This document shows, piece by piece, positions 9,397 to 28,728 of a DNA stretch of 54,740 nucleotides (positions are counted from its first letter, which is position 1; every line of letters starts with the position of its first letter). The position numbers were made by a program, and so were the translations under genes. Below the pieces are notes generated by a model. It worked only from the letters and a program-made list of their open reading frames with translations, was not told the origin of the DNA and made no database searches. Source of the stretch: Desulfotignum sp. (GTDB taxonomy: Bacteria > Desulfobacterota > Desulfobacteria > Desulfobacterales > Desulfobacteraceae); NCBI GenBank assembly GCA_011390635.1, contig JAABSA010000024.1:1-54740 (forward strand), written 5' to 3'.

Positions 9397-10695
9397 TTAC
9401 ACCACCAGGCTCTTTAATGTCAACAAAACACCGGCTGCCACTGCAGACCCGATAACTCCGGCCACATTGGGGCCCATGGCATGCATGAGCAGATGATTCT
9501 GGGGATCGGCTTCCATGCCCAGCTTCTGGCTCACACGGGCGGCCATGGGAACAGCAGATACGCCGGCTGAACCGATGAGGGGGTTGATTTTTGTCGTAAG
9601 AAACAGGTTCATCAGTTTTACCATGAGGATACCGGAAGCGGTTCCAATGGAAAAGGCAATGGAACCGAGCAGAAGAATCCCCAGCGTTGACAGATTTAAA
9701 AATTGATGCGCAGACAGCTGTGCCCCCACCCCCAGACCCAGCAGAATAGTGACAATATTGATCATGGCATTCTGAGCTGTCTGGGAAAGCCGGTCCACCA
9801 CCCCGCATTCGCGCATCAGGTTTCCGAACATGAAAAACCCGATAAGAGGTGCGGCTGAGGGAAGCAGCAGCACACACAGGCCCAGAACAATCAGGGGAAA
9901 TATTATTTTTTCCACCTTGCCCACAGGCCGCAACTGGCTCATGCGGATTTTACGTTCCGCTTTGGTGGTCAACGCCCGCATGATGGGCGGCTGGATCATG
10001 GGCACCAGGGCCATATAGGAATAGGCGGCCACGGCAATGGGACCCACCAGATGCGGTGACAGCTGGCTGGACAAAAATATGGCTGTGGGGCCGTCAGCTC
10101 CGCCGATGATACCGATTGAAGCGGCATCAAACAGATCGAAATGAATACCCGGCACAAATTCAGACAACAGCAGCGCACCGATGAGGGTTATAAAAATACC
10201 CACCTGGGCGGCTGCCCCCAGAAGCACGGTTTTGGGATTGGCCAGCAGAGGGCCGAAATCTGTCATTGCCCCGACACCCATAAATATAAACAAGGGGAAA
10301 ACCCCTGTTTTAATACCAATGGTATAAATATAGTACAGTATCCCCCCGGGATCACCCATTGCTGCTACAGGTGTATTGACCAGGATGGCACCGAATCCTA
10401 TGGGAACCAGCAGCAGAGGTTCAAATCTTTTGTTGATAGCAAGGTATAACAGCAAAATCCCTATGCCGATCATGATAAATTGACCAATTCCGTCAAAAAA
10501 ATTGTCTGCTCCGGAAGCAAAAAAACCGAACAAACCGGTGGATCGGCCGAAATTGGCAACCATATCAACGATAGGCGGAAGCAGGATCGGCTCCTGGCCA
10601 CCTGTCTGAGATGTACCTGCATGGGCCATGGACACCATTGAAAACAGCAGCACAACACCGCACAGGAAAGTGCTGAATGGATTTTTCTTACACAT
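9397..10695 (-). CDS. oadB: Oxaloacetate decarboxylase beta subunit (second OadB copy)
   Basis: 432 residues. An N-terminal hydrophobic leader ([24 protein letters not shown]) precedes the usual family start. The core repeats all OadB signatures: [48 protein letters not shown], and [18 protein letters not shown] with [16 protein letters not shown]. The leader is about 60 residues longer than in the other copy (7411-8532), and the two are clearly distinct paralogues. AAAAGGATTC precedes the chosen ATG at 10695. It follows oadA by 25 bp, giving the order G-A-B as in the Klebsiella oadGAB operon. It exports Na+ driven by carboxybiotin decarboxylation. Confidence 0.92.
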
Positions 10696-10720
10696 GATAA
10701 GAATCCTTTTTATCTTAAAG

Positions 10721-12553
10721 CTATTCTTCAAGAGTTAAAAGCACCTGTCCTGACTGCACTGTCTGCCCTTTCACCACCTGCACTGACGTGATGATACCGC
10801 TGCCCGGCGACATCACCGGTGTTTCCATTTTCATGGCTTCTAAAATCACCAGGGTTTCTCCTTCTGTCACTTCATCCCCCACTTCAAACAGAATCTGGTA
10901 AACATTCCCCGGCAGCTGGGCTTTGACTTCCAGCTTTGGTTTTTCTTTGGGAGCTTGCGCAGGCGTGGATGAAGGCTGGCTGATACCGGTAACATCACCG
11001 GTTTCATCTTCCACCGTGACCTCATATGTTTTGCCGTCAACCGTTACCTTGTAATTAAAGGAAACCGGTTCCTTTGTTCCGGCCGCAGATGCAGCCGGGT
11101 TGGAAACAGGCTCAGGGGGTGGTTGCGCAATAGTTTTGGCGGTATCGGTTTGTCTCCTGTTCTTGCGCACATTGACGGGTTTGTCTCCTTTGAGAAAATC
11201 CAACCCCTTGTTTCCTCCGGGGGTGGCCAATGCACCGATGATAAAGATATTCTCGTCTGTTACAGGAAGACCCTCGTGCTCGAGAATTTTTTTTGCTTTG
11301 GGGATACCCGGTTCCAGCAGATCCACGGGATCACCGTCAAACATCTTCATCCCCAGCTGTTTTTCAGCGATTTTTATGATTTCCGGGTCAGGGGGTATGG
11401 GAGTCCTGCCGAAATATCCCAGCACCATTTTGCCATACCCGTCTGTCATTTTCTGCCAGTTTCCCTGGGTCACATTGGCATAGGCCTGCTGAAAATAAAA
11501 CTGGGATACCGGGGTGACAGATGTGCCGAATCCGCCTTTGGCAATACATTCCGCCATGGCTTTGATCACTTTGGGGTACAAATGCAGCGTGCCGGTATCA
11601 CGCATCATCATGGTGTTGGCTGTCAATGCCCCGCCGGGCATGGGAGACAGGATCACCTCCGATGACACCTTCAGTGCCTCGGGCGGGAAAAAATAATCTT
11701 TGAGACAATCTTCCTGGATTCGATTGGCTTCCAGAATTTTTGTAATATCAATATCCAGAAAAAACTCCGTGCCTTTTAATGCATGCCACATGGAAATCAT
11801 ATCCGGCTGGCAGGTGCCGCCGGACAAGGGGGACCTGGCCAGACAGACACCGTCGCATCCCGCCTCAACCGCTGCCTTGTACTGGGAAATACCGATACCT
11901 GCGGTTTCATGGGAGTGCATCCAGATGGCGGTGTCATCCCCCAGCAGCTTTCTTGCTGCCTTGACCGTGTCATACACTTTGGCAGGATTTGAGGTGCCCG
12001 ATGCATCCTTGAAGCAGATAGAATCATAAGGAACCCCTGAATCCAGAATTTCCTGCAGGGTCTTGAGATAAAAAACAGGGTCATGGGCACCGGTGCACCC
12101 GGGAGGCAGTTCCATCATGGTGACCACCACCTGATGGTGCAGCCCGGCATCCTTGATACAGTTCCCTGAATACACCAGGTTGCGCACATCATTAAGCGCA
12201 TCGAAATTGCGGATATGGGTCATACCGTGTTTTTTAAACATTTTGGCGTGCAGATTGATCATATCCTTTGGCTGGGCGGAAAGTGCCACCACATTGATGC
12301 CCCTGGCAAGGGTCTGGAGACTGGCATCCGGACCGGCAGCCTCCCGAAACCGGTCCATCATGGAAAAAGCAGATTCACCGCAATACATGAAAAGGCTTTG
12401 AAACCTTGCACCGCCCCCGGCTTCCAAGTGATCAATCCCTGCTTCCACAGCTGCTTCCACAGCGGGAAGAAAATCATCTGTCAGTGCGCGTGCCCCGAAA
12501 ACCGATTGAAAACCGTCCCGAAACGATGTGTCCATAATGCGAATTTTTTTCAT
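10721..12553 (-). CDS. oadA: Oxaloacetate decarboxylase-type alpha subunit with C-terminal biotinyl domain (divergent)
   Basis: 610 residues. About 1-270 is the TIM-barrel carboxyltransferase: [12 protein letters not shown] with metal ligand D13, the carboxylated-lysine strand [13 protein letters not shown], and the metal-binding MHSHETAG. About 280-470 is the PYC_OADA/conserved carboxylase domain. A Pro/Ala-rich linker (about 480-540) leads to a biotinyl domain with acceptor Lys in ILEAMKMET (about 575). The canonical RDAHQS signature reads RDGFQS here (H to F), and the region after it ([12 protein letters not shown]) is also atypical. Partners OadG and OadB are adjacent, so it is a Na+-pumping 2-oxoacid decarboxylase component; oxaloacetate is the likely but unproved substrate. 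Confidence 0.85.
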
Positions 12554-12583
12554 TGGTAACCATCCTTGAGGTGTGTAAAACAG

Positions 12584-12844
12584 CTATCTGTGGCGGCCCA
12601 TATGGGCCCTGTGGGTTGCGATTGCTGCACTGATAACGGCTGTCAGTTTCAGGGTGTCATCAGAACCCTTTTTTTCCCTGGCCCGTGCCCGTACCGGTTT
12701 TTTGATTTTGGCCAGTGACATTTCTTTTTCTGTAAAAGGTGCCAGCAGTTTTGAAGAAAGATATATAAGGGCAAACAGCAGGACAAGAAAACAAAAAACC
12801 ACCCCCATACCAAGTATGGTGAGTTTTAATCCTTGAATAATCAT
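12584..12844 (-). CDS. oadG: OadG-like gamma subunit
   Basis: 86 residues starting MIIQGLKLTILGMGVVFCFLVLLF. One N-terminal membrane helix (about 8-33) with the OadG-type L-x2-GMGVVF-x-FL signature is followed by a basic, Arg/Lys-rich cytosolic tail ending in HRAHMGRHR. Histidines in this tail resemble the zinc-binding C-terminus of OadG. GGAGATG precedes the ATG at 12844; the longer frame upstream has no site. It is the first gene of the oadG-oadA-oadB operon, 31 bp before oadA. It is probably needed for complex assembly. Confidence 0.75.
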   Translation of the reverse strand: MIIQGLKLTILGMGVVFCFLVLLFALIYLSSKLLAPFTEKEMSLAKIKKPVRARAREKKGSDDTLKLTAVISAAIATHRAHMGRHR

Positions 12845-13283
12845 GTATTTCACATCTCCAGAAACTTTTTTTCGGTCTTGATGCAATATTATTCCACCCA
12901 CTTACATACACAAGATATCCCCTAAAGTAAAGTCGGTAAATGCTGTATCTTTTTGTAAGAATTTTTCTGATCCAGCGAATCGGACCGGTCAGGTAACCCA
13001 ATCCGTATAAAAGCACGGGCAGGCAAAAAACCAGACCTGCCGCGTCCAGGTGTGGGGCCCGGTGTTATGCAGATCAGACATACAAATTCCTGTTGCTGCT
13101 CCTGTCCCCCATGCTGCCTGAAATACAGCCCGTTTGAACGCACTTTTTCAGCAGCGTGTGGACAAATAATTCATCCAGGCATGATGGTTGCTTTGGACAT
13201 GTCTGAACAGCAGTGCGGCCTTACCGGCCGGTGACAAAAAAACGGATACATTTTCCAACCAGGCAAAAACACAAGGAGACATC
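12845..13283. other. Intergenic region between divergent oadGAB and the kamA-like operon
   Basis: About 440 bp without a convincing gene. Short open frames on - (for example within 12922-13143) have no ribosome binding site or recognisable family. Promoters for both operons should lie here, but no clear consensus is visible. On - a sigma-54-like TGGAATAATATTGCA occurs near 12883-12900, but with 9 rather than 10 bases between GG and GC. The kamA-proximal part contains ACAAGGAGAC, the site that sets the ATG at 13284. Confidence 0.5.
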
Positions 13284-14600
13284 ATGCAAAAGGCAGACGC
13301 ACCTGCAGAAACGCTTATAATTGAAGATGACGAGCCTCCAAGCGGCAGGCTTGTCCTGAAATCTTTTTACCCTTCCCCTGTGGCCGATTTCGGCCCTGTT
13401 TCCAGAAAACGGCACACCTTCATCGTCCCTGTAAAAACAAGACCCATAAAAGGTCTTGCCAAAACCACCCCGAAAACCCGTGCATTTATTAAAAAATATT
13501 TCCCCCAGGCGTCCACCCGGGACTGGCATGACTGGCAATGGCAGGTGCGCAACCGCGTGCGCACATATGAAAAGCTCAACCAGATACTGCCCCTTTGTCC
13601 GGAAGAATTGCTTGCCGATAAAGCCTCCCAGCTCCCTTTGGGTATTACACCCTATTACCTGAGTCTTTTTTCAGACAGCACCCCTGAGCACCCCTTGCGC
13701 AGGTCGGTTGTTCCCACGGTAAATGAATGGATCAAAATGCCCTGCGAGTCTGACGATCCTCTGGGTGAAGACCATCAGAGCCCGGTTCCCGGACTGGTAC
13801 ACCGGTATCCGGACAGGGTATTGTTTTTGCTTTTGGATTTTTGCTCCACCTACTGCAGGTACTGCACCCGGTCCCGGGTGGTGGGTCACGGCGGCATACT
13901 GGCCAGCCGGGCCAGATGGGAAAAAGCCATAGAATATATCCGCAACACCCCGACCATCCGTGATGTACTTTTATCCGGCGGTGATCCGCTGACCCTCAGT
14001 AATGACCGGCTGGAATGGGTGCTTTCACGGTTGCGCCAGATTCCCCATGTGCAGATCATCCGCATCGGCACCAAGGTGCCTGCGGTGCTGCCCCAGCGCA
14101 TTACGCCGGCACTTGTAAAAATGCTCAAGCAGTATCATCCGTTGTGGTTGAGCCTGCATTTCACCCATCCGGATGAATGTACACCTGAAACCCACAAAGC
14201 CTGCACCATGCTGGCGGACGCCGGTATTCCCTTAGGCTCCCAGACCGTGCTGCTCAAGGGCATCAATGATTCAGTAGAAACCATGACCGACCTGATGCAC
14301 AAACTGATGAAAATGCGTGTCCGGCCCTATTACCTGTACCAGTGTGATCCCATCACCGGGTCCGGTCACTTCAGGACCACCATACACCAGGGGCTGGATA
14401 TTATCCGGGGGATGCGGGGCTTTACCACCGGCTATGCCGTGCCCACCTATGTGGTGGATGCCCCGGGGGGCGGGGGTAAGATTCCGCTGATGCCCGATTA
14501 TGTGTGCGGCCACACCACAGAAGACCTGATGCTGACCAATTATGAAAACAAACCCTTTACCTATCCCGATCCGGTCCAGGCAATGCCTGTGCAGGGGTGA
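13284..14600 (+). CDS. kamA: Lysine 2,3-aminomutase-family radical SAM enzyme
   Basis: 438 residues. The radical SAM cysteines are C187, C191 and C194 (CSTYCRYC), followed by R196, the position that binds the substrate carboxylate in Clostridium aminomutase (R134). PLP would bind K399 in DAPGGGGK. The two aspartates that hold the epsilon-amino group of lysine (D293/D330) are present as D355 (YQCD) and D392 (VVDAPGGGG), with identical 37-residue spacing. Lysine or a similar diamine is therefore more likely than glutamate. The N-terminus is about 60 residues longer, and the C-terminal tail after K399 is only 39 residues, much shorter than classical KamA. The expected product is beta-lysine, made in the cytoplasm. 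AAGGAGAC precedes ATG 13284. First gene of a four-gene operon. Confidence 0.85.
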   Translation: MQKADAPAETLIIEDDEPPSGRLVLKSFYPSPVADFGPVSRKRHTFIVPVKTRPIKGLAKTTPKTRAFIKKYFPQASTRDWHDWQWQVRNRVRTYEKLNQILPLCPEELLADKASQLPLGITPYYLSLFSDSTPEHPLRRSVVPTVNEWIKMPCESDDPLGEDHQSPVPGLVHRYPDRVLFLLLDFCSTYCRYCTRSRVVGHGGILASRARWEKAIEYIRNTPTIRDVLLSGGDPLTLSNDRLEWVLSRLRQIPHVQIIRIGTKVPAVLPQRITPALVKMLKQYHPLWLSLHFTHPDECTPETHKACTMLADAGIPLGSQTVLLKGINDSVETMTDLMHKLMKMRVRPYYLYQCDPITGSGHFRTTIHQGLDIIRGMRGFTTGYAVPTYVVDAPGGGGKIPLMPDYVCGHTTEDLMLTNYENKPFTYPDPVQAMPVQG

Positions 14601-14620
14601 CAGGGCACAGGAGAAAAACA

Positions 14621-15637
14621 ATGATCATCGGATTGACCTATGACCTGCGCCAGGACTACCTGGACATGGGATACACCGCCCTTGAAACCGCTGAATTTGA
14701 TTCAGTGGAAACCATTGAGGCCATTGAACAAGCCCTGTTCGATTTAGGGCATACGCCGGTGCGCATCGGCAGCGGGAGACAGCTGACCGAGCGCCTGGTG
14801 CAGGGCGAACGCTGGGACCTGGTGTTCAACATTGCCGAAGGTCTGCATGGCATGGGCAGAGAAGCCCAGGTGCCGGCCATGCTGGAACTGTACCAGATCC
14901 CCTATACCTTTTCAGACCCCCTGGTCATGTCCCTGAGTCTGCACAAGGGCATGACCAAGCGCATCATCCGGGATGCCGGGCTTGCCACGGGGCATTTTTT
15001 CACGGCCCGGTCCCCGGAAGAGGCCCGTCAGGTGCCTTTTGGGCCGCCCTGGTTTGTCAAGCCCGTGGCCCAGGGAACCGGCATGGGCATAACGGCGGAT
15101 TCCGTAGTCCGGCAAAAACAGGATCTGCCTGAAATCTGCAAAAACCTGCTGCACCAGTTCGGCCAGCCAGTGCTCATCGAACAGTTTCTGTGCGGCCGGG
15201 AATTTACCACCGGGCTTGTGGGCACCGGCGCCCGGGCCAAGGTGATGGGCACCATGGAAATCATTGTACTGGCACAGCAGGGAAAAGAGATCTATTCCTT
15301 TGAGAACAAGGAAGGGTGGAAGGGCCGGGTCCAGTACCAGCCCCTGTCTCCTGACATGGATCCCCTGATCAGGGAGGTGGAGGCACTGGCCCTTAGTGCC
15401 TGGCAGGTGCTGGAGTGCCGGGACGGGGGACGGATCGACATCCGGTGTGATGACACAGGCACCCCCTGTTTTATCGAGGTCAATCCCCTGGCCGGTCTGC
15501 GGCCCCATTATTCAGACCTGCCCATGGTGTGTGAATTTTTTAAGACATCCTATGTCCGACTCATAGAAATGATCCTGACATCCGCACTGGACAGGGTGCC
15601 TGACAAAAACCTCACCCCCTGCCCGGAGCCGGCATGA
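14621..15637 (+). CDS. D-alanine-D-alanine ligase-like ATP-grasp enzyme 1
   Basis: 338 residues starting MIIGLTYDLRQDYL. The ATP-grasp fold is visible: the N-terminal domain with DLVFNIAEGLHGMGREAQVPAMLE (the Ddl E-G-xxREA pattern), the lysine strand PWFVKPVAQGTGMGI, the adenine-binding EQFLCGREFTTGL, and the metal-binding GGRIDIRCDD..CFIEVNPLAGL. Such enzymes form an amide bond through an acyl phosphate. A peptidoglycan Ddl would sit with mur genes; here it follows an aminomutase by 20 bp and overlaps a second ligase by four bases. It more likely joins an amino acid (perhaps beta-lysine) to a partner. ACAGGAG precedes ATG 14621. Confidence 0.8.
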   Translation: MIIGLTYDLRQDYLDMGYTALETAEFDSVETIEAIEQALFDLGHTPVRIGSGRQLTERLVQGERWDLVFNIAEGLHGMGREAQVPAMLELYQIPYTFSDPLVMSLSLHKGMTKRIIRDAGLATGHFFTARSPEEARQVPFGPPWFVKPVAQGTGMGITADSVVRQKQDLPEICKNLLHQFGQPVLIEQFLCGREFTTGLVGTGARAKVMGTMEIIVLAQQGKEIYSFENKEGWKGRVQYQPLSPDMDPLIREVEALALSAWQVLECRDGGRIDIRCDDTGTPCFIEVNPLAGLRPHYSDLPMVCEFFKTSYVRLIEMILTSALDRVPDKNLTPCPEPA

Positions 15638-16680
15638 AGCGTACCATTGCCATTGTGCACAATACCGTGACCAACCCTGCTCTGCCGGACGAGGCAGATG
15701 TCCTGGTCCAGGTGGAAGCGGTATCCCGGGCCCTGACCAGCCTGGGATACCACCCGGTGGCGGTGCCCTGCGACCTCAACCTGGCCGCTCTGACGCATAC
15801 CCTTAAGGATATCCGGCCCCTGGGGGTGTTCAACCTGGTGGAGTCCCTGGAAAACCGGGGCAGCCTGATCCATGTGGTGCCCTCTCTTCTGGCAGCCCTG
15901 AACATCCCCTATACCGGGTGCCCGGCACAGGCTGTGTATGCCACCTCCCACAAGGTGATGGCCAAAGAACGGATGCATCTTACTGGTCTGCCTACCCCTG
16001 CCTGGATCAATCCGTTTCCTGCCGACATGCCCTGGCAGGGTGCTCTTTGTCCGGGGGGGGATGGATACATCGAAAACGGACGCGCCCCGCAAGGAGGTAT
16101 CTCCCCGAGCTTATGGATCATCAAATCCCTGTGGGAACATGCATCTTTGGGGCTGGAAAGGGAAAACCTGGTGACCGGCACAGCCGCTGATGTACAAAAA
16201 CAGCTGGCGCTTCGTACCAAAGATCTGGGAGGTGCCTGTTTTGCCGAACTATTCATCCAGGGAAGGGAATTCAACCTGTCGCTGCTGGGCACCCCGTCCG
16301 GGGTGAGGGTGCTGCCGCCGGCTGAGATCCAGTTTTTGGATATACCAGCTGACCAGCCCGCCATGGTGGGGTACCGGGCCAAATGGCTGCCGGATGCACA
16401 AGAATACCACAACACCCCCCGGCGGTTTGATTTCCTTAGAAAAGATGCCGCCCTTGTCAGCACCCTCAAGTCCCTGGCCTGCCGCTGCTGGCAGGATTTT
16501 AACCTTCAGGGATACGCCCGGGTGGACTTCCGGGTGGATACCCTGGGCAACCCGTTTATCCTTGAAATAAACACCAATCCCTGCCTGTCACCGGATGCCG
16601 GATTTGCTGCCGCTTTAGACCGGGCAGGAATTTGCTTTGCCGACGGTATCAACCATATTGTGAATCTTTGTCTATGTTAA
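15634..16680 (+). CDS. D-alanine-D-alanine ligase-like ATP-grasp enzyme 2
   Basis: 348 residues starting MKRTIAIVHNTVTNP. It is a paralogue of the preceding ligase. Visible elements are GVFNLVESLENRGSLIHVVPSLLAALNIPYTG (substrate loop), SLWIIKSLWEHAS in the ATP-lysine region, FAELFIQGREFNLSLLG, and the metal site YARVDFRVDT..PFILEINTNPCLS. An insert of about 25 residues (near 135-155) separates the two ATP-grasp lobes. The start overlaps the previous gene by four bases (ATGA), and its own end overlaps the next start. Two different ligases in one operon suggest two successive amide bonds or a heterodimer. Confidence 0.78.
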   Translation: MKRTIAIVHNTVTNPALPDEADVLVQVEAVSRALTSLGYHPVAVPCDLNLAALTHTLKDIRPLGVFNLVESLENRGSLIHVVPSLLAALNIPYTGCPAQAVYATSHKVMAKERMHLTGLPTPAWINPFPADMPWQGALCPGGDGYIENGRAPQGGISPSLWIIKSLWEHASLGLERENLVTGTAADVQKQLALRTKDLGGACFAELFIQGREFNLSLLGTPSGVRVLPPAEIQFLDIPADQPAMVGYRAKWLPDAQEYHNTPRRFDFLRKDAALVSTLKSLACRCWQDFNLQGYARVDFRVDTLGNPFILEINTNPCLSPDAGFAAALDRAGICFADGINHIVNLCLC

Positions 16681-18947
16681 AAATAAGAAGAATCTTTGAT
16701 GATGTCATCCCCGTGAACCAGGATGCCATCCGCCAGGTCAAAGAGATCATAAAAAAGCGGTTTCCTTCCGTGTCTGAAGAAGAGATCACCCATCTGGGGG
16801 ACAAACTGCGCAACCCTTTCAAACTCCGGTTCCGACCCATTTTGTTTGTGGCGGAAAACATGCGGCACAAGGTGTTGGGATTTGCCATGGTTCTGCATGA
16901 ACCGGAAATCAACTTCTGCTACCTGGACTGGATCGCCACGGCAAAAGACACCCTGCGGGGAGGCCTTGGCAGCGCTCTGTATGAACGGGTCAGAAGTGAG
17001 TGCGCATCCTTGGGGGTCAAGGGGCTTTTTTTTGAATGCCTGCCCGACACCCCGGGAGAATGTGACCCCGAACTGCGCAAAGACAATATTGCCCGGTTGC
17101 GGTTTTACGAACGGTACGGGGCCCGGCCCATTGTGGGCACAGGATATGAAAGCCCGGTCAACCCGGATGACACCTGCATGCCGTTTCTGGTCTATGATGA
17201 CCTGGGATCGGACACGCCGCTTGCCCGGGCCCATGTCAAGAATGTGGTGCGGGCCATTCTGGAGCGCAAATACAAAGACCTTTGCCCCGCAGCATACGTG
17301 GAACAGGTGGTGGCCTCCATCCGAGACAACCCGGTGAAACGCAGAGCCTTTTGTCATGTGCCGCCCAAAAAAACCCGCCGGGCAGTCAATGAAAACTTTA
17401 ATGAAAAAATAGTTCTGGTACTCAACCAGGACCATGAAATTCACCATATCCATGAACGCGGGTATGTGGAATCTCCGGTGCGCATCAAAAGCATTCTGTC
17501 CCAATTGGAAAAAACCAGTCTGTTTGAAACCCTGGAAACCCGGCATTTCCCCGACTCCCATATCCACGGGGTCCATGACGCGGATTTCATCGCCTTTCTG
17601 GCCCGGGCCTGTGAAGAGGTGCCCCGGGATAAATCCCTGTACCCCTATGTGTTTCCCATCAGAAACAAAACCCGGCCGCCCAGAGAATCCACGGTGCTGC
17701 CTGGCTATTACTGCATTGACACCTTCACTCCGATCCACCGCAATGCATATCCTGCGGCCCGGGCCGGGGTCAATGCCGCCCTCACGGCGGCCACCGCTGT
17801 GTTGGACGGCCGCAGGATCGCCTATGCCCTGGTGCGGCCCCCGGGACACCATGCAGAACGCCGGGCCTTTGGCGGATTCTGCTACCTCAATAACGCGGCC
17901 ATTGCAGCCCGGTATCTGCGGGAACATGGCCGGGTGGCCATTCTGGACATCGACTACCACCACGGCAACGGTCAGCAGGATATCTTCTATCACCGCTCCG
18001 ATATCCTCACCGTGTCCATCCACGGCCATCCTGAATTTGCATATCCCTATTTTACCGGATTTGAAGATGAAAAAGGCGCGGGCGAGGGTGAGGGATTCAA
18101 TCTCAACCTGCCCCTGGGAGAAACCATTGACGGCAAGGCCTATCGCAATACCCTGGCCCAGGCCCTGCGCCGTATTTCCGGATTTGAACCCGATTTTCTG
18201 GTGGTCTGCCTGGGGCTGGACACCGCCAGAAACGATCCCACCGGCACCTGGTCTTTGACCCGGAAAGATTTTTTCCTGAACGGACGGATGATCGGTGATA
18301 CCGGCCTGCCTGTCCTGGTTATCCAGGAAGGTGGATACAAAACCCGGAACCTGGGAATCAATGCCCGGCACTTTTTTGAAGGCCTGGCTGAAGCGGTGTT
18401 CAAAATCACCAGTCAAAAATCTTTGCACACCCTGCAAAACAAAGGTTTGCACATCCGGTATGAGCCGGTACAAAAGGATGTGGCAGATATCCGGCATCTG
18501 ACGGCCGCCACTGGATTTTTCAGGGCCGATGAAGTGGACATCGCGGCCCAGCTGGTGCAGGAACGCCTGGAAAAAGGCACGGCCAGCGGCTACTATTTTG
18601 TATTTATCACCCGGGCCGGCAAGCTGGTGGGATATGGGTGCTACGGCCCCATTCCGTGCACTTTGGCCAGTTTTGACATCTACTGGATAGCGGTGGCGCC
18701 TGAATTTCAGGGCAAAGGCTTAGGGCAAATCCTCCTGGCCCGGATGGAACAGCTCATCAAAGACATTGGGGGCCACAAAATTTATGTGGAAACCGCTTCA
18801 CAGCCCAAATACGCCCCGACCCGCTCCTTTTACGAACGTTGCGGCTATACGGTTGAAGCCACCCTGGCCGATTTCTACGGCCCGGAAGATGCCAAGGTGA
18901 TTTACAGCAAATCCATGAAACCCGTCAGGTCAGAACCTGTTGTATAA
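16674..18947 (+). CDS. GNAT - acetylpolyamine amidohydrolase (HDAC-like) - GNAT fusion protein
   Basis: 757 residues with three domains. About 1-175 is a GNAT fold (LFVAENMRHKVLGFAMVLHEP, LRGGLGSALYERV as acetyl-CoA loop, NIARLRFYERYGARP). About 245-585 is a class II HDAC-like acetylpolyamine amidohydrolase: RPPGHHAERR with H392/H393, zinc ligands D427 and H429 in DIDYHHGNG and D521 in LDTARNDPTG, catalytic Tyr555 in QEGGY. About 590-750 is a second GNAT with VAPEFQGKGLG and RSFYERCGY. All hydrolase residues are intact. It may acetylate and deacetylate an amine in one polypeptide, for example the aminomutase product. The start overlaps the preceding ligase stop by seven bases. An in-frame upstream ATG at 16632 is less likely. 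Confidence 0.85.
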   Translation: MLKIRRIFDDVIPVNQDAIRQVKEIIKKRFPSVSEEEITHLGDKLRNPFKLRFRPILFVAENMRHKVLGFAMVLHEPEINFCYLDWIATAKDTLRGGLGSALYERVRSECASLGVKGLFFECLPDTPGECDPELRKDNIARLRFYERYGARPIVGTGYESPVNPDDTCMPFLVYDDLGSDTPLARAHVKNVVRAILERKYKDLCPAAYVEQVVASIRDNPVKRRAFCHVPPKKTRRAVNENFNEKIVLVLNQDHEIHHIHERGYVESPVRIKSILSQLEKTSLFETLETRHFPDSHIHGVHDADFIAFLARACEEVPRDKSLYPYVFPIRNKTRPPRESTVLPGYYCIDTFTPIHRNAYPAARAGVNAALTAATAVLDGRRIAYALVRPPGHHAERRAFGGFCYLNNAAIAARYLREHGRVAILDIDYHHGNGQQDIFYHRSDILTVSIHGHPEFAYPYFTGFEDEKGAGEGEGFNLNLPLGETIDGKAYRNTLAQALRRISGFEPDFLVVCLGLDTARNDPTGTWSLTRKDFFLNGRMIGDTGLPVLVIQEGGYKTRNLGINARHFFEGLAEAVFKITSQKSLHTLQNKGLHIRYEPVQKDVADIRHLTAATGFFRADEVDIAAQLVQERLEKGTASGYYFVFITRAGKLVGYGCYGPIPCTLASFDIYWIAVAPEFQGKGLGQILLARMEQLIKDIGGHKIYVETASQPKYAPTRSFYERCGYTVEATLADFYGPEDAKVIYSKSMKPVRSEPVV

Positions 18948-22385: not shown

Positions 22386-23774
22386 CTATTCCTCGGGTTT
22401 CATATGATCCGGCAACACCAGCATCTTGATAATGATGGGTTTTAAAAAAGACCACCTGATTCCGATTTTGAATTCTTCCTCCAGGTCTCGAATGGCATCC
22501 CAGCAGTTATGGCAGGGCGCCAGAACAAGTTTTGCTCCGGTGGCAAGAATCTGATCCCGCTTTTTTTCCAGCCCCTTGTTGCGCTGTTTTCGGAACAGGC
22601 CGATACCATTAAACCCGCCACCACCACCGCAGCAGAAATTATGCTCCTTGTTGGGGGACATCTCAACAAAATATCCCGGTTCAACAATATGGCTCATGAT
22701 CTCACGGGTGGCGTTCTTCAGCCCCTGGTTCCGGACATAGTTGCAGGAATCCTGCATAGTGACCAGTTCCCTGATACGTTTGGATGGATCAATTTTTAAT
22801 TTGCCTTCTCTTAGCGCCTCTGCCAGCCATTCAACGTAATGGATGGATTCCACCGGCGGCAGTCCGTTTTCCCGTCCGGCCCAGTAGGGACCTTCAATCA
22901 CGGTGGCCCGGTGGGCATGACCGCACTCGGTTCCGATCATCCGTTTGGGTTTGAGTTTTTCCATGGCGGCATACACCGATTCCACCTGCATCTTGCAGGC
23001 GGCCCAGTCACCGGCAAACATGGCCAGACTGGTCTGCTCCCATCCCTCGGATGGAACAGTCCAGTTTTCACCGGCAGCATGGAACAAAATAGCGGCTTCT
23101 GCCAGATCTTCCGGATAATGTTTTACCTCCCTGGCATTGACGGTATACATAATATCGGCATTTTCAACATCAACCGGCACGGTGAGACCGATGTATTCTT
23201 CTTCGTTCTCTTCCACCATCCATTCAAAGGTCTCGACAAAATCTTCGTTGGTGACATCCATCTGGGCACGGTAGGCACGGTGCATGCCGGCACCGATTTT
23301 CATTTCCCAGGGCACAAAACCCTGCTGATACAAGAGTCCGCGCAGATACCCGAACATGATGCCCGTGTCAATGCCATGGGGGCAGTAGGTGCCGCAGCGG
23401 TTGCAACAGGTGCACTGTGCCCATGCCACTTCCATGGCATGACGCATAAAGGCGTTGTCCACCTTGCCTTTCCGTTTTATGATCTCGCCCAGGGTGGATT
23501 GAATCTTATAGGCCGGAACCTGTTTGGGATCACGGTCGTTGACCAGATACAGAAAACAGCTGTCCGCACACATCCCGCAATGGGCACAGATTTCAAGCCA
23601 GGTACGCAGTCTTGACTTCAAGGTTTTCTGGATGGTGGCCCACAGGAGATCGGAATCCACCTCAAGGTTTTTCATTTCTTTATAGTATTGATTTCCACTG
23701 GTATCTGACAACAGAAAATTCACTTCTTCCGGTGTATTGACCGGTGTCTTATTACAATATTTTCCTTCCGGCAT
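22386..23774 (-). CDS. hmcF: HmcF, cytoplasmic Fe-S/CCG-domain subunit of the Hmc complex
   Basis: 462 residues. An N-terminal pair of [4Fe-4S] motifs ([11 protein letters not shown] and [14 protein letters not shown]) is followed by heterodisulfide-reductase-like CCG domains; the second reads CNYVRNQG...[13 protein letters not shown]. This architecture matches HmcF and the related DsrK and TmcB, which face the cytoplasm and handle thiol/disulfide or ferredoxin electrons. A helix lies in the region between about 150 and 230. It follows hmcE by 42 bp, the known gene order. The start ATG 23774 has AAGGAG 12 bases upstream. Confidence 0.9.
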
Positions 23775-23816
23775 GAATGTACATCTCCTTACATGGTGTT
23801 TTTGTCAACAGCGCTG

Positions 23817-24494
23817 CTACCAGGCCATTTTGGTGCCCTTCATCCCGCCGCGCTTGATACCGAAATCCATTCCCAGCTGCGCCCGTGATGCAAAAAACAG
23901 GAAAACGTGGGACATTTTGGTAAACGGAATGGCGATCAAGAGGAGTTCACCGCAGAAAATATGCAGGTTGAGCCAGAAAGAATAATCGCCCACATGGTAC
24001 CGGGCCGTCAGTCCTGTGAGAAAAGGTGCCAGTGCGATGAAAAGGATAAAATAATCATACAGTGTGGTTAAGATCCGAACTTCCGGCAGAACAATACGCC
24101 GGAGGATCAAGAAAAATGCACAGACCACAGCCAGCCAGGTCAGAAAATCCGCAACTCCAGCGTTCAGCGTGAACAATGAAAATCCCACCTTGTTTTCGAG
24201 AAAAATATTATGGGCAGACAAAAACAGCGGAACAACCACCGCGCCGATATGAAACCCGAAAAATGCGGCTGCCATAAACGGCTGGGTGCGCCATCCATAG
24301 GTTCCATAGGGAATCAACCATTTGTATATGGAGCGGAACGCCCCTTTCATTCCAGCCTTTGGGTGGGCTTTATAGGCCACCCGGTCCAGCTGCCAGCTCA
24401 GCCCCCGAAAATACAGAACAAATCGAACCAGCATTCCCACCAGGCAGACCGTGATGGCAAACCAGAAAAAGATCCCTGTTAGAAATTCATGCAT
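23817..24494 (-). CDS. hmcE: HmcE, NarI-like membrane cytochrome b subunit
   Basis: 225 residues with about five membrane helices, starting MHEFLTGIFFWFAITVCLVGMLVRF. It belongs to the NarI/DsrM type. Histidines suited to bind heme b occur in helices (GFHIGAVVVPLFLSAHN, NLHIFCGEL, KMSHVFLFF). It takes electrons across or from the membrane and would pass them to HmcF. The 117-bp gap to hmcD holds no gene. Confidence 0.88.
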   Translation of the reverse strand: MHEFLTGIFFWFAITVCLVGMLVRFVLYFRGLSWQLDRVAYKAHPKAGMKGAFRSIYKWLIPYGTYGWRTQPFMAAAFFGFHIGAVVVPLFLSAHNIFLENKVGFSLFTLNAGVADFLTWLAVVCAFFLILRRIVLPEVRILTTLYDYFILFIALAPFLTGLTARYHVGDYSFWLNLHIFCGELLLIAIPFTKMSHVFLFFASRAQLGMDFGIKRGGMKGTKMAW

Positions 24495-24611
24495 TTATAT
24501 GTGCCTCCATTTTGAATAACGACCATACCCTGACGGGCACAACAAATCATGAAAGAATTCATATCGTTACATGTTCTTTCATATACATTGTTGGTGCACT
24601 GCCGGCATTGG

Positions 24612-24743
24612 TCAGTCTTTTTCCCTTTCGTTTAAAAACAACCAGAACAGCGGCAGGAATATCAGAATACCGCCCATGATCAGATAGGTGATGTTCTTGG
24701 TGTGTGTCATAAAATCATGAAGTGTATACATTATGGTTTCCAT
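24612..24743 (-). CDS. hmcD: HmcD, small single-helix subunit of the Hmc complex
   Basis: 43 residues with one membrane helix (about 18-37, ITYLIMGGILIFLPLFWLFL) and a charged end, NEREKD. AAGGAGACACAAA precedes the ATG at 24743; the longer open frame upstream has no site. Position between hmcC and hmcE, size and single helix match HmcD, which has a structural role. Sequence alone would not identify it. Confidence 0.8.
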   Translation of the reverse strand: METIMYTLHDFMTHTKNITYLIMGGILIFLPLFWLFLNEREKD

Positions 24744-24771
24744 TTTGTGTCTCCTTATATTCTGGCAAAAT

Positions 24772-25941
24772 TCAGTGGGTTTTATAATCCGGGTGTTCAT
24801 ACAGCACCGGCATCCGGGTTGCGACAAACCGATATACCACAATACCGATGGTGACGATAAATACGGATGTGCCGATCTCCATGAGGCTCGGAAAGTACCG
24901 GTCTGCCGACGGCAGGTGGTAATTAAAGGCAATGATGGAAATGTTGAGCCGGTTCAGAACAATGCCCAGCACCGTCAGCACTGCAGCAATCCGGACAAAC
25001 ATCAGATTTTTCTCTCTGAAACCCATGGCAAAGAGAATGGCCGGAAATGCGACAAAGCCCACCAGCTCGATCAGGAACCAGAGTCCCCAGCCGGTAGCCA
25101 GATAGTTCCAGTTGTTATCAATGGAAAGACCGACAATCTTTATGGCCAGATATCCCATCATGATAAACGAGGCGGCCTTGGCAAACCCGAAGGCCACACC
25201 ATGGGATTCTTCGTGGTGGGCATGATCCATTTTATGACTCAGGTACCGGTGGGCCAGAGTGCTTTCAAAAATCACCATGGACATGCCGGCGAACATGCTG
25301 GATATGAAGAAATATACCGGCAGATACCCCGAATACCACAAAGGATGCAGCTTTGACGGTGCAATCATGAACAGGGCGCCCAGTGACGACTGGTGAAGGG
25401 TGGACAGCACCACACCGAAAATGGTGAGCACCAGGGTGAGCTTGACCACAATCTGCCGGATCTTTTTCAATCCCAGCCACTCAAAGGCGGCAGGCGTAAA
25501 TTCAATAAAAAGAACGGTGAGATACAAAAAAACACACAATCCCACTTCAAAGAGGAGCGACGAGGTCCCCTGGGATACAAAAATGGGATACGGCAGACGC
25601 CATGGCCGCCCCACATCGTAATGCAGGGCAAACACCACCAGGGCATACCCCAAAAATGCCGTCAGGATGGCAGGGCGCACGGCGGAATGGTAGCGCTTGA
25701 GTCCGAATACATAGCAGGCGGCAGAAGTGACATACCCGCCCGCTGCCAGGGCGACACCGCACAGCAGATCAAATCCGATCCAGATGCCCCAGGGATTATT
25801 GTTGTCCAGGTTGGTGACTGCGCCGAGTCCCTTTGTAAACCGCAGAATAGTCAAGATTGCACCAACCACCAATATGATACCGATAATCACATTGGTGGCT
25901 GTAAATTTTTGGGTGTTGGATTGCGTCTTTTCCACGGCCAT
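24772..25941 (-). CDS. hmcC: HmcC, NrfD/HybB-like integral membrane subunit
   Basis: 389 residues with about ten membrane helices. It belongs to the NrfD/HybB (PsrC) family of quinone-site subunits: NNPWGIWIGFDLLCGVALAAGGY near the N-terminus, HYDVGRPWRLPYP, and FEVGLCVFLYLTVLFIEF are the familiar elements. It lacks cofactor ligands of its own and would exchange electrons between menaquinone and HmcB. Its stop nearly abuts hmcD (28 bp); its start abuts hmcB directly. Confidence 0.9.
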   Translation of the reverse strand: MAVEKTQSNTQKFTATNVIIGIILVVGAILTILRFTKGLGAVTNLDNNNPWGIWIGFDLLCGVALAAGGYVTSAACYVFGLKRYHSAVRPAILTAFLGYALVVFALHYDVGRPWRLPYPIFVSQGTSSLLFEVGLCVFLYLTVLFIEFTPAAFEWLGLKKIRQIVVKLTLVLTIFGVVLSTLHQSSLGALFMIAPSKLHPLWYSGYLPVYFFISSMFAGMSMVIFESTLAHRYLSHKMDHAHHEESHGVAFGFAKAASFIMMGYLAIKIVGLSIDNNWNYLATGWGLWFLIELVGFVAFPAILFAMGFREKNLMFVRIAAVLTVLGIVLNRLNISIIAFNYHLPSADRYFPSLMEIGTSVFIVTIGIVVYRFVATRMPVLYEHPDYKTH

Positions 25942-27054
25942 TTATTTATCCTCCTCGATGGATTCCCCAGAATCACTGCCCGCTTCGGGTTCTGGTTTCT
26001 GCTCCTGGTCAGCAGTTTCCTGTGCTTCTTTTTCGGCTTCTTCCAATGCCTTTTTAACCTCAAAATTAATAGCAGCTGTTTTTTCCCTTGTCATTTTTTC
26101 CCTGAGCGCATCCAGCTTATTCTGCGTTTCTTCCTGGCTCAAAGCGATGGTTTCGGCCACGGCTGCCGCCTTTTCCTCCTGGGCGATCCTGTCTTTGCGT
26201 TTTGAAATGGCATACATGCCGGTGAGCAGCACCGGCCAGAGACCTACAACAATCGGAACAGCGGACAAGGGACCCGCGGTCAGTTCCGGGGCAGAGGTGA
26301 TGCCGAGATCCTCTCTCATGCCCACCTCGGAAAAAGAGACTCCTGAAATGTACAGCCAGCTGGTACCCCCCATTTCGTGTTCACCATATACATGATCGGT
26401 ATACTGATCCGGATAGGCATAAATCCTTTTCCAGGCATACTTGAGCAGTTCATCGCGTTTACCGAACACCAGAGCATTCTTGGGACAGGCTTCCACACAG
26501 CCGGGCAGCTTGCCTTCCAGCAGTCTGGGGTAGCACATGGTGCATTTGGTCACCCGGGGGGTCAAGGCTTTATGGTACTCATAGGCAGGAACGTCAAACG
26601 GACAGGCTACCATGCAATACCGGCATCCTACACACAGGCTTTCATCATAAATTACGGCACCCTGCTTTGTTTTTGTAAACGCCTTGACAAAGCAGGCCGA
26701 TGCACAGGCCGGTTCCAGACAATGGTTGCACTGTTTTTTGGCAAACACGTAAGGTTCGTGTTGAAACCGGTTCACCACCGTAAAGACATCAGCATCTGTC
26801 CTGCGCCGGGTATCGAGCACAGACAGGTCATCAAACGGAACCCTGGGTTCTGGCAGATCGTTCACCGCATTGCAGGCGCTTTCACATTTTCTGCATCCAA
26901 TACATTTTGTAATATCATGAAGAACGCCGAAACTGTCTGGATAGCCTTTGAAATGTTTGTTGGAGGCCCCATAGGCTTTGCCCAGGGCACCAGTGGCATT
27001 TCCCAGCGCGGCAGCACCGATACAGCCTATAAACTTTCTTCGCGAAATAGCCAT
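25942..27054 (-). CDS. hmcB: HmcB, periplasmic ferredoxin-like subunit with four [4Fe-4S] sites
   Basis: 370 residues. The N-terminus [17 protein letters not shown] is a Tat-type signal (SRRKFIG). Four cysteine groups follow between about 50 and 210: [35 protein letters not shown] and CTMCYPR...CVEAC, the DmsB/HybA pattern. One membrane helix near 270-290 anchors it. The C-terminal 80 residues are a charged, Glu/Ala-rich coiled coil, longer than usual. It links the 16-heme HmcA to HmcC. It follows hmcA by 39 bp. Confidence 0.9.
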
Positions 27055-27093
27055 AATTTTTCCTCTGTTTGTATGGTATCCATCATACTTGTC

Positions 27094-28662
27094 TTATTTT
27101 TTTTCATGACATTTAATACAATCCGTTGCCAACACCGTCTGGATCTCCATTTTCTGATGACAGGTGATGCACTGCCCGTGGTAAGCGCTTTTCAGGTCGG
27201 GCTTATTGTTGGCGATGTCTGTGGTCTTTCCATGACAGGATGCACATTTGGGCGGGTCCAGAGATTTGGGGCTGTTGTGATGACACCCCAAGCACAAGGT
27301 CTGCTGATCCTGATGAAAAGCCCTGGCCAGATCACTGGTCTGGGCGCGGTTTGCAATGGCCAGAAACACTTTGCGATGGGGAAATTCACTGGGCTTGTAT
27401 TCATCTGCCAGTTCTGCGATGGTGACGATTTCAGGAATTTTGTCAACCGCAACTGCAGTGAATTCAGCAGGCCGGCCGGAAATGATCTGTCCGGCCATCA
27501 TTTTTCGCTGATCCGCATCTGTGATCACCTTGTTATCCGGTGCATTATGGCAAACGACACAAGCGTTTTCCCCGGGCTTTTTTCCGGGCATCATGTTATG
27601 GCAGCCGGCACAATCTGAAGATGCCGTCACACGGGTATGGCACCCGACACAGCTGCTGTCGGACTGAGTGGTATGCATGGCTTCTTCCAGGCGGACAAAC
27701 CCGCCTTTGACATTCCCTTTAGGTGTATGACACGCACTGCAGCTTTCAAGAGATTCATGGTGACAGACCTTGCAGCTGATGGCTGTTTCTTCATGGCCTT
27801 TATGATCAAACGCCACCGGCGTCATCAGATATCCGGGGGATTCCCCTTCAGATGCCAGTCCCGTCATGAAAACAGCATCCGGCTGATTTCTTTTAAGGCG
27901 GGAAATGTTTTCCACTACCTTTATTTTGGCCTGTTCCTGTTCATCATGGCAACCGTAACAGGTGACAGGACCGGCCGGCAGTTTTTTTTCAGCTGTCCTT
28001 ACATGGCAGCCCACACAGGCATCATGGGCTGCGGTCTGCATGGAACGGATACCATCTGTTTCTGTTTGTTTGTGACAATAGACACAGGCGGATTCCGCCC
28101 CTTTGGTATAAAATGTCTCTTTTGTCTTTTCGTTGTATTCATGATGGCAGGCGCTGCAATTATCTGTATCCGATTGCGCACGGGACGAAATATTTTCAGA
28201 TTTTTCATGGATGTAGTGCAGCGATTTATCAAAAACGAGTTTTTTCCATTCCGCATCTGCAGGCTCCGATGCTGCGCCATGGCAGCTTCTGCATTCTGCC
28301 GCCAAAGGTCCTGATGATTTTCCTGCAGATTTTTTTTCTTCATGACAGGACAGGCAGTTTTCATGGTACAGGTCCATTGAAGGTGCCTGATCTGTCCGTT
28401 GAAAGGCAAAGAAAAGGGTCTCATCATCTTTACGGATGTGGCACTGGTCGCATCTGCCGTCAACCGCCTGATTGTGAATGGCATGGGGAAAATCAACTGC
28501 CGGCATTTCGTTGCCAGAAATGTCAGCCGGAAGATCAATTGTGATCAGATCCGGCCCGTTTACCCTGCCGGTATCTTTTATTTTGGTCTGGGCCAAAAGA
28601 GGGAGCAGGCACAAGGCTATCGTCACAATCATTATCAGTTGAAATGATTTTACTTTTGACAT
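27094..28662 (-). CDS. hmcA: HmcA, 16-heme high-molecular-weight cytochrome c
   Basis: 522 residues with a Sec-type signal peptide (MSKVKSFQLIMIVTIALCLLPLLAQT). I count exactly 16 CxxCH heme motifs, from CDQCH near residue 70 to CIKCH at the C-terminus. The number and length match HmcA of Desulfovibrio, which receives electrons from the periplasmic hydrogenase/type I cytochrome c3 network and passes them to the membrane subunits. AGAGGATTTGACC sets the ATG at 28662, seven codons inside the longer frame. First gene of the hmc operon. Confidence 0.93.
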   Translation of the reverse strand: MSKVKSFQLIMIVTIALCLLPLLAQTKIKDTGRVNGPDLITIDLPADISGNEMPAVDFPHAIHNQAVDGRCDQCHIRKDDETLFFAFQRTDQAPSMDLYHENCLSCHEEKKSAGKSSGPLAAECRSCHGAASEPADAEWKKLVFDKSLHYIHEKSENISSRAQSDTDNCSACHHEYNEKTKETFYTKGAESACVYCHKQTETDGIRSMQTAAHDACVGCHVRTAEKKLPAGPVTCYGCHDEQEQAKIKVVENISRLKRNQPDAVFMTGLASEGESPGYLMTPVAFDHKGHEETAISCKVCHHESLESCSACHTPKGNVKGGFVRLEEAMHTTQSDSSCVGCHTRVTASSDCAGCHNMMPGKKPGENACVVCHNAPDNKVITDADQRKMMAGQIISGRPAEFTAVAVDKIPEIVTIAELADEYKPSEFPHRKVFLAIANRAQTSDLARAFHQDQQTLCLGCHHNSPKSLDPPKCASCHGKTTDIANNKPDLKSAYHGQCITCHQKMEIQTVLATDCIKCHEKK

Positions 28663-28728
28663 GGTCAAATCCTCTGATTGCATGGTTCTGGAACGGGTTT
28701 ATAAAACCAACTGTTTTTATCGGGATAT

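Follow-up and report, generated by a model that had tools for sequence, protein, structure and literature searches.

A widely conserved aminomutase–ligase–acetyltransferase gene set and its candidate role in making an acetylated beta-lysine conjugate

The operon in Desulfotignum sp. and its four proteins

We analyzed a stretch of 54,740 nucleotides from Desulfotignum sp. (contig JAABSA010000024.1; referred to as the window), which is the whole of contig 22 of the host genome (4.09 Mb, 96.4% complete). On the forward strand, open reading frames at 13284–18947 form an operon of four genes, KamA, Lig1, Lig2 and the gene of protein 4, a GNAT-deacetylase-GNAT protein encoded at 16674–18947. A first-pass annotation had described the four genes as tightly packed. 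Their coordinates bear out the 20-bp gap and the overlaps of 4 bp and 7 bp that it gave, the last being between Lig2 and protein 4.

13284–14600, + strand: KamA, radical-SAM lysine 2,3-aminomutase-type; ATG at 13284, stop TGA at 14598–14600
14621–15637, + strand: Lig1, Ddl-fold ATP-grasp ligase; alternative GTG start at 14597
15634–16680, + strand: Lig2, second, divergent Ddl-fold ATP-grasp ligase; 4-bp overlap with Lig1
16674–17378, + strand: GNATn, N-terminal GNAT domain of protein 4; approximately residues 1–235
17379–18413, + strand: HDAC, acetylpolyamine-amidohydrolase-like deacetylase domain of protein 4; approximately residues 236–580
18414–18947, + strand: GNATc, C-terminal GNAT domain of protein 4; approximately residues 581–757; conserved core

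An AGGAG motif at 13274–13278 precedes the ATG of KamA, and another at 14609–14613 stands ahead of ATG 14621. The latter codon, 20 bp beyond KamA, is most likely the start of Lig1; the possible alternative, GTG 14597, would give a 4-bp overlap with KamA.

KamA scores 342.7 bits against the NCBIfam subfamily model TIGR00238, above the cut-off of 199.2, and its sole PDB match at E ≤ 0.001 is the lysine 2,3-aminomutase (LAM) 2a5h (E 1e-140). It carries C187, C191, C194, R196, D355, D392 and K399. The KamA alignment has 127 rows, comprising loci L062–L223 and the window, with near-copies included and the loci of two other phyla left out. C187, C191 and C194 of the radical-SAM CxxxCxxC motif occur in all 127 rows, and D355, D392 and K399, whose positions were aligned to 2a5h, are likewise invariant. 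We take these three residues to be the counterparts of LAM D293 and D330, the presumed epsilon-amine-binding aspartates, and of K337, the presumed pyridoxal phosphate lysine. With D355 and D392 kept in every row, the lysine-type aminomutase with both lysine-binding aspartates that had been annotated here stands. At the equivalog level of NCBIfam, KamA lies under the cut-off of EpmB (244.1 versus 369.3 bits) and under those of the glutamate and arginine aminomutases.

Lig1 and Lig2 both match the Ddl C-terminal domain PF07478 in Pfam (E 7.6e-22 and 4.8e-13, respectively). Their AlphaFold models, with a mean predicted local distance difference test score of 87.4 for Lig1 and 86.1 for Lig2, share DdlA 8evx as the top Foldseek match (E 9.4e-23 and 1.4e-23), and the 50 matches listed for each model are all Ddl or D-Ala:D-lactate kin. 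Domain match and modeled fold thus agree with the annotation of two different Ddl-like ATP-grasp ligases. However, on the best NCBIfam model Lig1 (144.4 bits) and Lig2 (78.7 bits) remain below the Ddl cut-off of 243 bits, whereas a separate Ddl elsewhere in the host genome reaches 344 bits on that model. The earlier view that both ligases are distinct from the D-Ala-D-Ala ligase of the cell is upheld by these scores. In the alignment, Lig1 S306 falls on the serine corresponding to DdlB Ser281, with D307 adjoining, and Lig2 D321 and A322 fall on DdlB His280 and Ser281. In view of the role of Ser281 in Ddl, the second-substrate site differs from that of Ddl, at least in Lig2.

Protein 4 contains a Hist_deacetyl domain (PF00850, E 2.5e-75) flanked by GNAT domains. 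Acetyltransf_1 matches the protein in two stretches, and the GNAT domain corresponding to GNATn in a related protein, that of L083, is matched at E 7.3e-6. The best PDB match of the deacetylase domain is acetylpolyamine amidohydrolase 6phr (E 2.6e-74). The domain carries the sequence RPPGHH with the tandem H392–H393, together with D425, D427, H429, D516 and Y555, so that both the zinc-site residues and the RPPxHH motif by which acetylpolyamine amidohydrolases are recognized are present; all of these residues are at least 95% conserved across 50 collected rows. We assume that D427, H429, D516, H392–H393 and Y555 play the active-site roles of deacetylases. With D427, H429 and D516 in place and GNAT domains on both sides, the GNAT-amidohydrolase-GNAT protein with an intact zinc site is as the annotation had it. 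In PMC11532494, RPPxHH is tied to lysine side-chain or polyamine deacetylases, as opposed to longer-acyl-chain hydrolases.

GNATc has 2r7h as its best PDB match (E 1.3e-40), a structure named putative D-alanine N-acetyltransferase in the PDB. This name, and the Ddl fold common to Lig1 and Lig2, would fit a reading in which the two enzymes serve cell-wall synthesis as accessory D-Ala-D-Ala ligases. We consider this extremely unlikely: both proteins score well under the Ddl cut-offs, the host genome has another Ddl above the cut-off, and Lig2 has Asp321 and Ala322 where DdlB has His280 and Ser281.

Conservation of the gene set across genomes

Among 59 near genomes, Lig2 was found in 23 (E ≤ 1e-50). 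Reading their neighborhoods revealed a core of KamA, Lig1, Lig2 and GNATc, which takes three forms. GNATc ends the GNAT-deacetylase protein in the first form and ends Lig2 in the second, where four genomes (L082–L085) have the GNAT-deacetylase gene elsewhere; in the third form it stands alone (L064 and L074). A GNATn-HDAC protein occurs in 18/23 near genomes with Lig2 and in 0/36 without it (Fisher p 5e-11, kinship ignored).

A scan of named genomes gave at least 584 Lig1 relatives, of which the best 80 were kept. Among these 80, the closest are Desulfotignum records, and the others include Desulfobacterales and their kin, Planctomycetes, Bacteroidetes, Acidobacteria, Calditrichaceae, KSB1, Krumholzibacteriia, Marinimicrobia and Kiritimatiellae. 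Nearly all of the named records are assemblies from mixed samples, and a 3.5-kb Patescibacteria contig with a Lig1 relative may be contamination. We further drew genomes by phylum, with the center genomes included: Lig1 is present in 84/247 genomes of its own phylum (E ≤ 1e-60), in 39/198 of the phylum of a Bacteroidetes record and in 34/199 of that of a Planctomycetaceae record (both E ≤ 1e-55). Plasmids searched with Lig1 gave no match at E ≤ 1e-20.

In total, 192 loci with Lig1 were read besides the window, of which 184 are distinct. Those from the phylum draws (52/85 from the own phylum, 20/39 and 20/35 from the phyla of the Bacteroidetes and Planctomycetaceae records) were chosen by us and are not a random sample. 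Of the 184 distinct loci, 137 show 3 kb of sequence or more both before and after Lig1; we call these full view, and genes on the same strand within 6 kb are counted as near Lig1. Under this definition 119 full-view loci have KamA near Lig1, 123 have Lig2, 111 have GNATc and 44 have the deacetylase, while none of the four is near in 6. By source, KamA is near Lig1 in 15/15 full-view loci of near relatives, 51/52 of named records, 26/35 of the own-phylum draw, and 15/18 and 12/17 of the draws around the Bacteroidetes and Planctomycetaceae records. Conservation over so many genomes puts the set beyond chance.

Fusions in the 184 loci comprise GNATn-HDAC-GNATc (38 loci), GNATc-Lig2 in one reading frame (19 loci) and Lig1-Lig2 (one locus, L248, a protein of 721 residues). 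KamA leads in most own-phylum loci. In the phylum of the Bacteroidetes record, 20 loci were read; KamA follows Lig1 in 16 of them, and no KamA is shown in the other 4. Since the gene order differs, the grouping is more than one inherited stretch of chromosome. We thus observe directly the conservation, order, fusion and co-occurrence of the set. The annotation had expected its four genes to be conserved together and had treated them as one set. KamA and Lig2 near Lig1 in 119/137 and 123/137 loci agree with the former, and the latter stands for the core of KamA, Lig1, Lig2 and GNATc. GNATn and the deacetylase, in contrast, are a separate module, near Lig1 in 44/137 loci and absent or unlinked in many genomes.

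Co-occurrence was compared at the level of whole genomes as well. KamA (E ≤ 1e-100) is present in 133/247 own-phylum genomes, namely 84/84 with Lig1 and 49/163 without it. At a stricter limit of 1e-136, the counts are 79/84 versus 12/163; one of these 12, G058, does have the cluster, its Lig1 being recognized only as a 74-residue piece (L069). Because KamA of some kind is common, its bare presence is weaker evidence than the neighborhoods. All 24 genomes checked in which no KamA was seen near Lig1 have a KamA elsewhere (E ≤ 1e-30). They comprise 14 of the polyamine type described below, 2 with an aminotransferase and 8 others, the genome of L146 being left out. Weak cases among the 8 are G118, which matches at 1e-111, in the range of ordinary KamA, G509, a fragment, and G442, which is split.

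We notice several further genes in these loci. In the two aminotransferase genomes, from the phylum of the Planctomycetaceae record and with KamA elsewhere, an aminotransferase class V gene holds the place ahead of Lig1 (L244, 6283–7470; L245, 8951–10132). A CxxCxxCC (YkgJ-like) protein of about 190 residues is encoded in L102 (9439–10020) and 22 other loci, mostly between KamA and Lig1 and downstream in L135; one that was tested falls just under the Pfam cut-off. L079 (7677–9827), L080 and L081 encode proteins of 717–747 residues with a Ddl-like ATP-grasp N-terminal half, and the C-terminal half of the L079 protein, the one tested, has no Pfam match.

The predicted pathway and its alternatives

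On balance, we favor the view, which we give somewhat better than an even chance, that a widely conserved pathway makes an N-acetylated beta-lysine conjugate and that the operon encodes one of its versions. The lysine-type aminomutase, the non-Ddl ligases and the conserved grouping agree with the acetylated beta-lysine conjugate proposed in the annotation; the part of that proposal in which all four genes are equal partners does not hold. Beyond the level of the fold, we infer the mechanism as follows. KamA, with its intact catalytic and lysine-binding residues, would convert L-lysine into beta-lysine. Lig1 and Lig2, of Ddl fold but not Ddl, would then each form one amide bond, joining beta-lysine and its partners. 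GNATc may acetylate an amine of the ligase product, as its fusion to Lig2 in 19 loci suggests. In some lineages, the GNAT-deacetylase module would add and remove the acetyl group and so set the acetylated share of the product.

Several points weigh against this view. KamA lies under the NCBIfam equivalog cut-off of AblA (479.8 versus 525.4 bits), and the Pfam domain LAM_C is matched by KamA over positions 1–62 of 127 only. Of the 23 near genomes with Lig2, one (G053) shows no other gene of the set. Among the 137 full-view loci, 18 lack KamA near Lig1, 14 lack Lig2 there and 26 lack GNATc. Forty-nine own-phylum genomes have KamA (E ≤ 1e-100) without Lig1, and our Fisher tests of co-occurrence ignore relatedness. 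Neither the window nor 17 related loci contain a riboswitch, osmotic or other, that reaches the Rfam gathering score; the related loci gave three tRNAs only. Moreover, the host genome has EpmA and a sole KamA, and this KamA might serve elongation factor P (EF-P), either instead or also.

In the EF-P reading, the beta-lysine made by KamA would go to EpmA for use on EF-P, and proteins would be the targets of the ligases, GNAT domains and deacetylase. EpmA is above its cut-off in the host genome (309.6 versus 286.9 bits) and in 52/59 near genomes, and the operon KamA is the only KamA-family match in the host genome at E ≤ 1e-30. Taken together, these suggest that KamA may serve EF-P as well. However, KamA does not reach the EpmB cut-off, G009 (86% complete) has EpmA with no Lig2 found, and seven stretches centered on EpmA or on a second KamA have no Lig gene marked in their visible parts. 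EpmA uses (R)-beta-lysine, and KamA enzymes make the other hand. An EF-P role also leaves the ligases unexplained, and we regard it as quite unlikely to account for the operon. In the host genome, EpmA adjoins an AcuC-like deacetylase gene and a hydantoinase/oxoprolinase-like gene (L284, 6729–10644). The same grouping is seen, by BLAST and by eye, in L285, L287 and L290, the last from G009. A deacetylase beside an EF-P lysylation gene may deserve attention.

Alternatively, the operon could encode just the N-epsilon-acetyl-beta-lysine pathway, with another enzyme in place of AblB and with ligases of unrelated function. AblB (TIGR03827) has no match in the host genome at E ≤ 1e-10, and GNATc could replace it. 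We find this reading very unlikely, since both ligases stay together with KamA in several phyla, Lig2 is fused to a GNAT in 19 loci, and protein 4 scores 20.9 bits against an AblB cut-off of 205.1. AblB is present in 1/23 near genomes with Lig2 and in 6/36 others (Fisher p 0.23, kinship ignored); the idea that AblB and the cluster are exclusive alternatives is thus unsupported.

One group of loci has polyamine genes. In 12 loci, Lig1-Lig2 lie behind a gene for pyruvoyl-dependent arginine decarboxylase (PvlArgDC). Of these, 10 show agmatinase, 7 a deoxyhypusine-synthase-like gene and 5 GNATc; the Pfam and NCBIfam assignments cover members of L181, L185 and L188. KamA and PvlArgDC are seen in 119 and 8 of the 137 full-view loci, and both in none. 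Given this mutual exclusion and the N-C4-N likeness of beta-lysine and putrescine, we first read the loci as an exchange of KamA for a putrescine route. This exchange of diamine suppliers is rejected, because 14/14 such genomes (12 with the decarboxylase in view and 2 cut off by contig ends) have one KamA elsewhere. KamA therefore accompanies Lig1 whether the genes touch or not, and the polyamine genes are additional features of one group. The surroundings of the distant KamA were read in 9 of the 14 genomes; no Lig gene lies there, and in 5 of the 9 a short gene resembling a MerR-type regulator (by eye) is beside KamA.

A Lig1 tree of 131 rows, built by a quick method, places the ArgDC-linked rows inside a well-supported branch of 28 rows, 17 of them KamA-linked, 7 ArgDC-linked and 4 others. 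Residue 307 of Lig1 was tried as a marker of the supplier and rejected. Among unthinned rows, it is D in 139/160 KamA-linked rows, C in 17 KamA-linked rows and C in 12/12 ArgDC-linked rows. The tree holds 16 of the 17 KamA-linked C307 rows, and these 16 share the branch of the ArgDC-linked rows, so position 307 marks the branch and not the substrate.

These loci bear on a rival reading, in which Lig1 and Lig2 would join the carboxylate of beta-lysine to amines of a polyamine such as putrescine or homospermidine, and the GNAT and deacetylase would handle an acetylated form of the beta-lysyl-polyamine. Glutathionylspermidine synthetase, which likewise makes a peptide-polyamine amide, is the model for it. 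Besides the 12 PvlArgDC loci, the reading draws on the closeness of the deacetylase domain to acetylpolyamine amidohydrolases and on the nitrogens of beta-lysine, four carbons apart as in putrescine. Since KamA is elsewhere in all 14 polyamine-type genomes, the polyamine route and beta-lysine would both be at hand. In six loci of one family (L178–L180 and L208–L210), a helix-turn-helix–cupin regulator gene lies directly upstream of KamA; tested in L180, its best NCBIfam match is PuuR, under the cut-off (68 versus 211 bits). PuuR is a putrescine regulator, and this match also counts for the polyamine reading.

Nevertheless, the polyamine genes are confined to a single group, nested within one branch of the Lig1 tree, PvlArgDC was found neither in the host genome nor in 12 others of its genus searched, and a deacetylase is shown in none of the 12 PvlArgDC loci; the arginine decarboxylase gene may be a mere neighbor. 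We therefore rate the polyamine reading as rather unlikely. Its broader form, in which the module of several phyla makes undescribed amide-linked beta-lysyl-polyamine (or bis-beta-lysyl) conjugates with an acetyl switch in some lineages, is likewise rather improbable. If it were true, the lineage with arginine decarboxylase, agmatinase and deoxyhypusine-synthase-like genes and a KamA elsewhere would show both halves of the conjugate. A RimK-like third ATP-grasp protein is encoded between ArgDC and Lig1 in L185 (7634–8557) and between KamA and Lig1 in L175 (2091–3050); the two have weak Pfam scores and 44% mutual identity.

Returning to the acetylated beta-lysine conjugate that we favor, it is possible that the product serves as a compatible solute or a nitrogen store, roles that the annotation had suggested together with recycling by the amidohydrolase. 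Promoter-like sites show no excess (4 versus a shuffle mean of 5.1), and terminator-like sites are above the shuffles (16 versus 9.5, standard deviation 3.3). Just upstream of the operon and divergent from it, a Na+-pumping decarboxylase set (OAD beta, biotin-carrying alpha, gamma) occupies 9397–12901 on the reverse strand. Also on the reverse strand, 22386–28683 holds a run of electron-transfer genes, in which a CCG-domain Fe-S protein and a nitrate-reductase-gamma-like membrane protein come first; the genes that follow look by eye like those of membrane subunits, Fe-S subunits and a multihaem cytochrome.

Each enzyme type is known by itself, and we found no description of their combination in the open-licence literature searched; as most subscription papers lie outside that scope, the evidence of novelty is weak. 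Genomes with Lig1 or a close relative are common in all three phylum draws, and a metabolite that so many bacteria make and that has no name would mark a real gap in knowledge. With so few enzymes, the pathway can be tested directly in vitro. The operon context would also call into question the D-alanine name under which 2r7h is filed.

Comparison with known systems

The ligases share with Ddl the fold and the R-x-D and E-x-N residues, which by alignment are R279/D281/E294/N296 in Lig1 and R296/D298/E311/N313 in Lig2. They differ from it in family scores far under the cut-offs, in an altered second-substrate loop and in their genome context.

In PMC9337991, a lysine-2,3-aminomutase gene of Dehalobacter that lies under Na+ and cyclic di-AMP riboswitches is described as a case of osmolyte control; the window and the 17 related loci gave no such riboswitch at the gathering score.

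Like the AblA/AblB pathway, the operon has a lysine 2,3-aminomutase followed by a GNAT. It differs in two extra ATP-grasp ligases, in the lack of AblB and, in some lineages, in a deacetylase module. With the beta-lysylation of EF-P by EpmB and EpmA it shares a KamA-family enzyme predicted to make beta-lysine, and EpmA is present in the host genome. In contrast to that system, EpmA is not adjacent, KamA is under the EpmB cut-off, and ATP-grasp ligases are part of the operon.

The N-acetylglutaminylglutamine amide pathway uses GNAT and ATP-grasp chemistry to make an acetylated peptide, and its cluster includes an asparagine-synthetase-like enzyme. The operon shares the GNAT and ATP-grasp chemistry and has an aminomutase instead; Pfam finds no asparagine-synthetase-like or peptidase domain in its four proteins. 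Acetylpolyamine amidohydrolases, finally, are the closest solved relatives of the deacetylase domain and have the RPPxHH motif in common with it, whereas the domain in protein 4 is fused between two GNAT domains.

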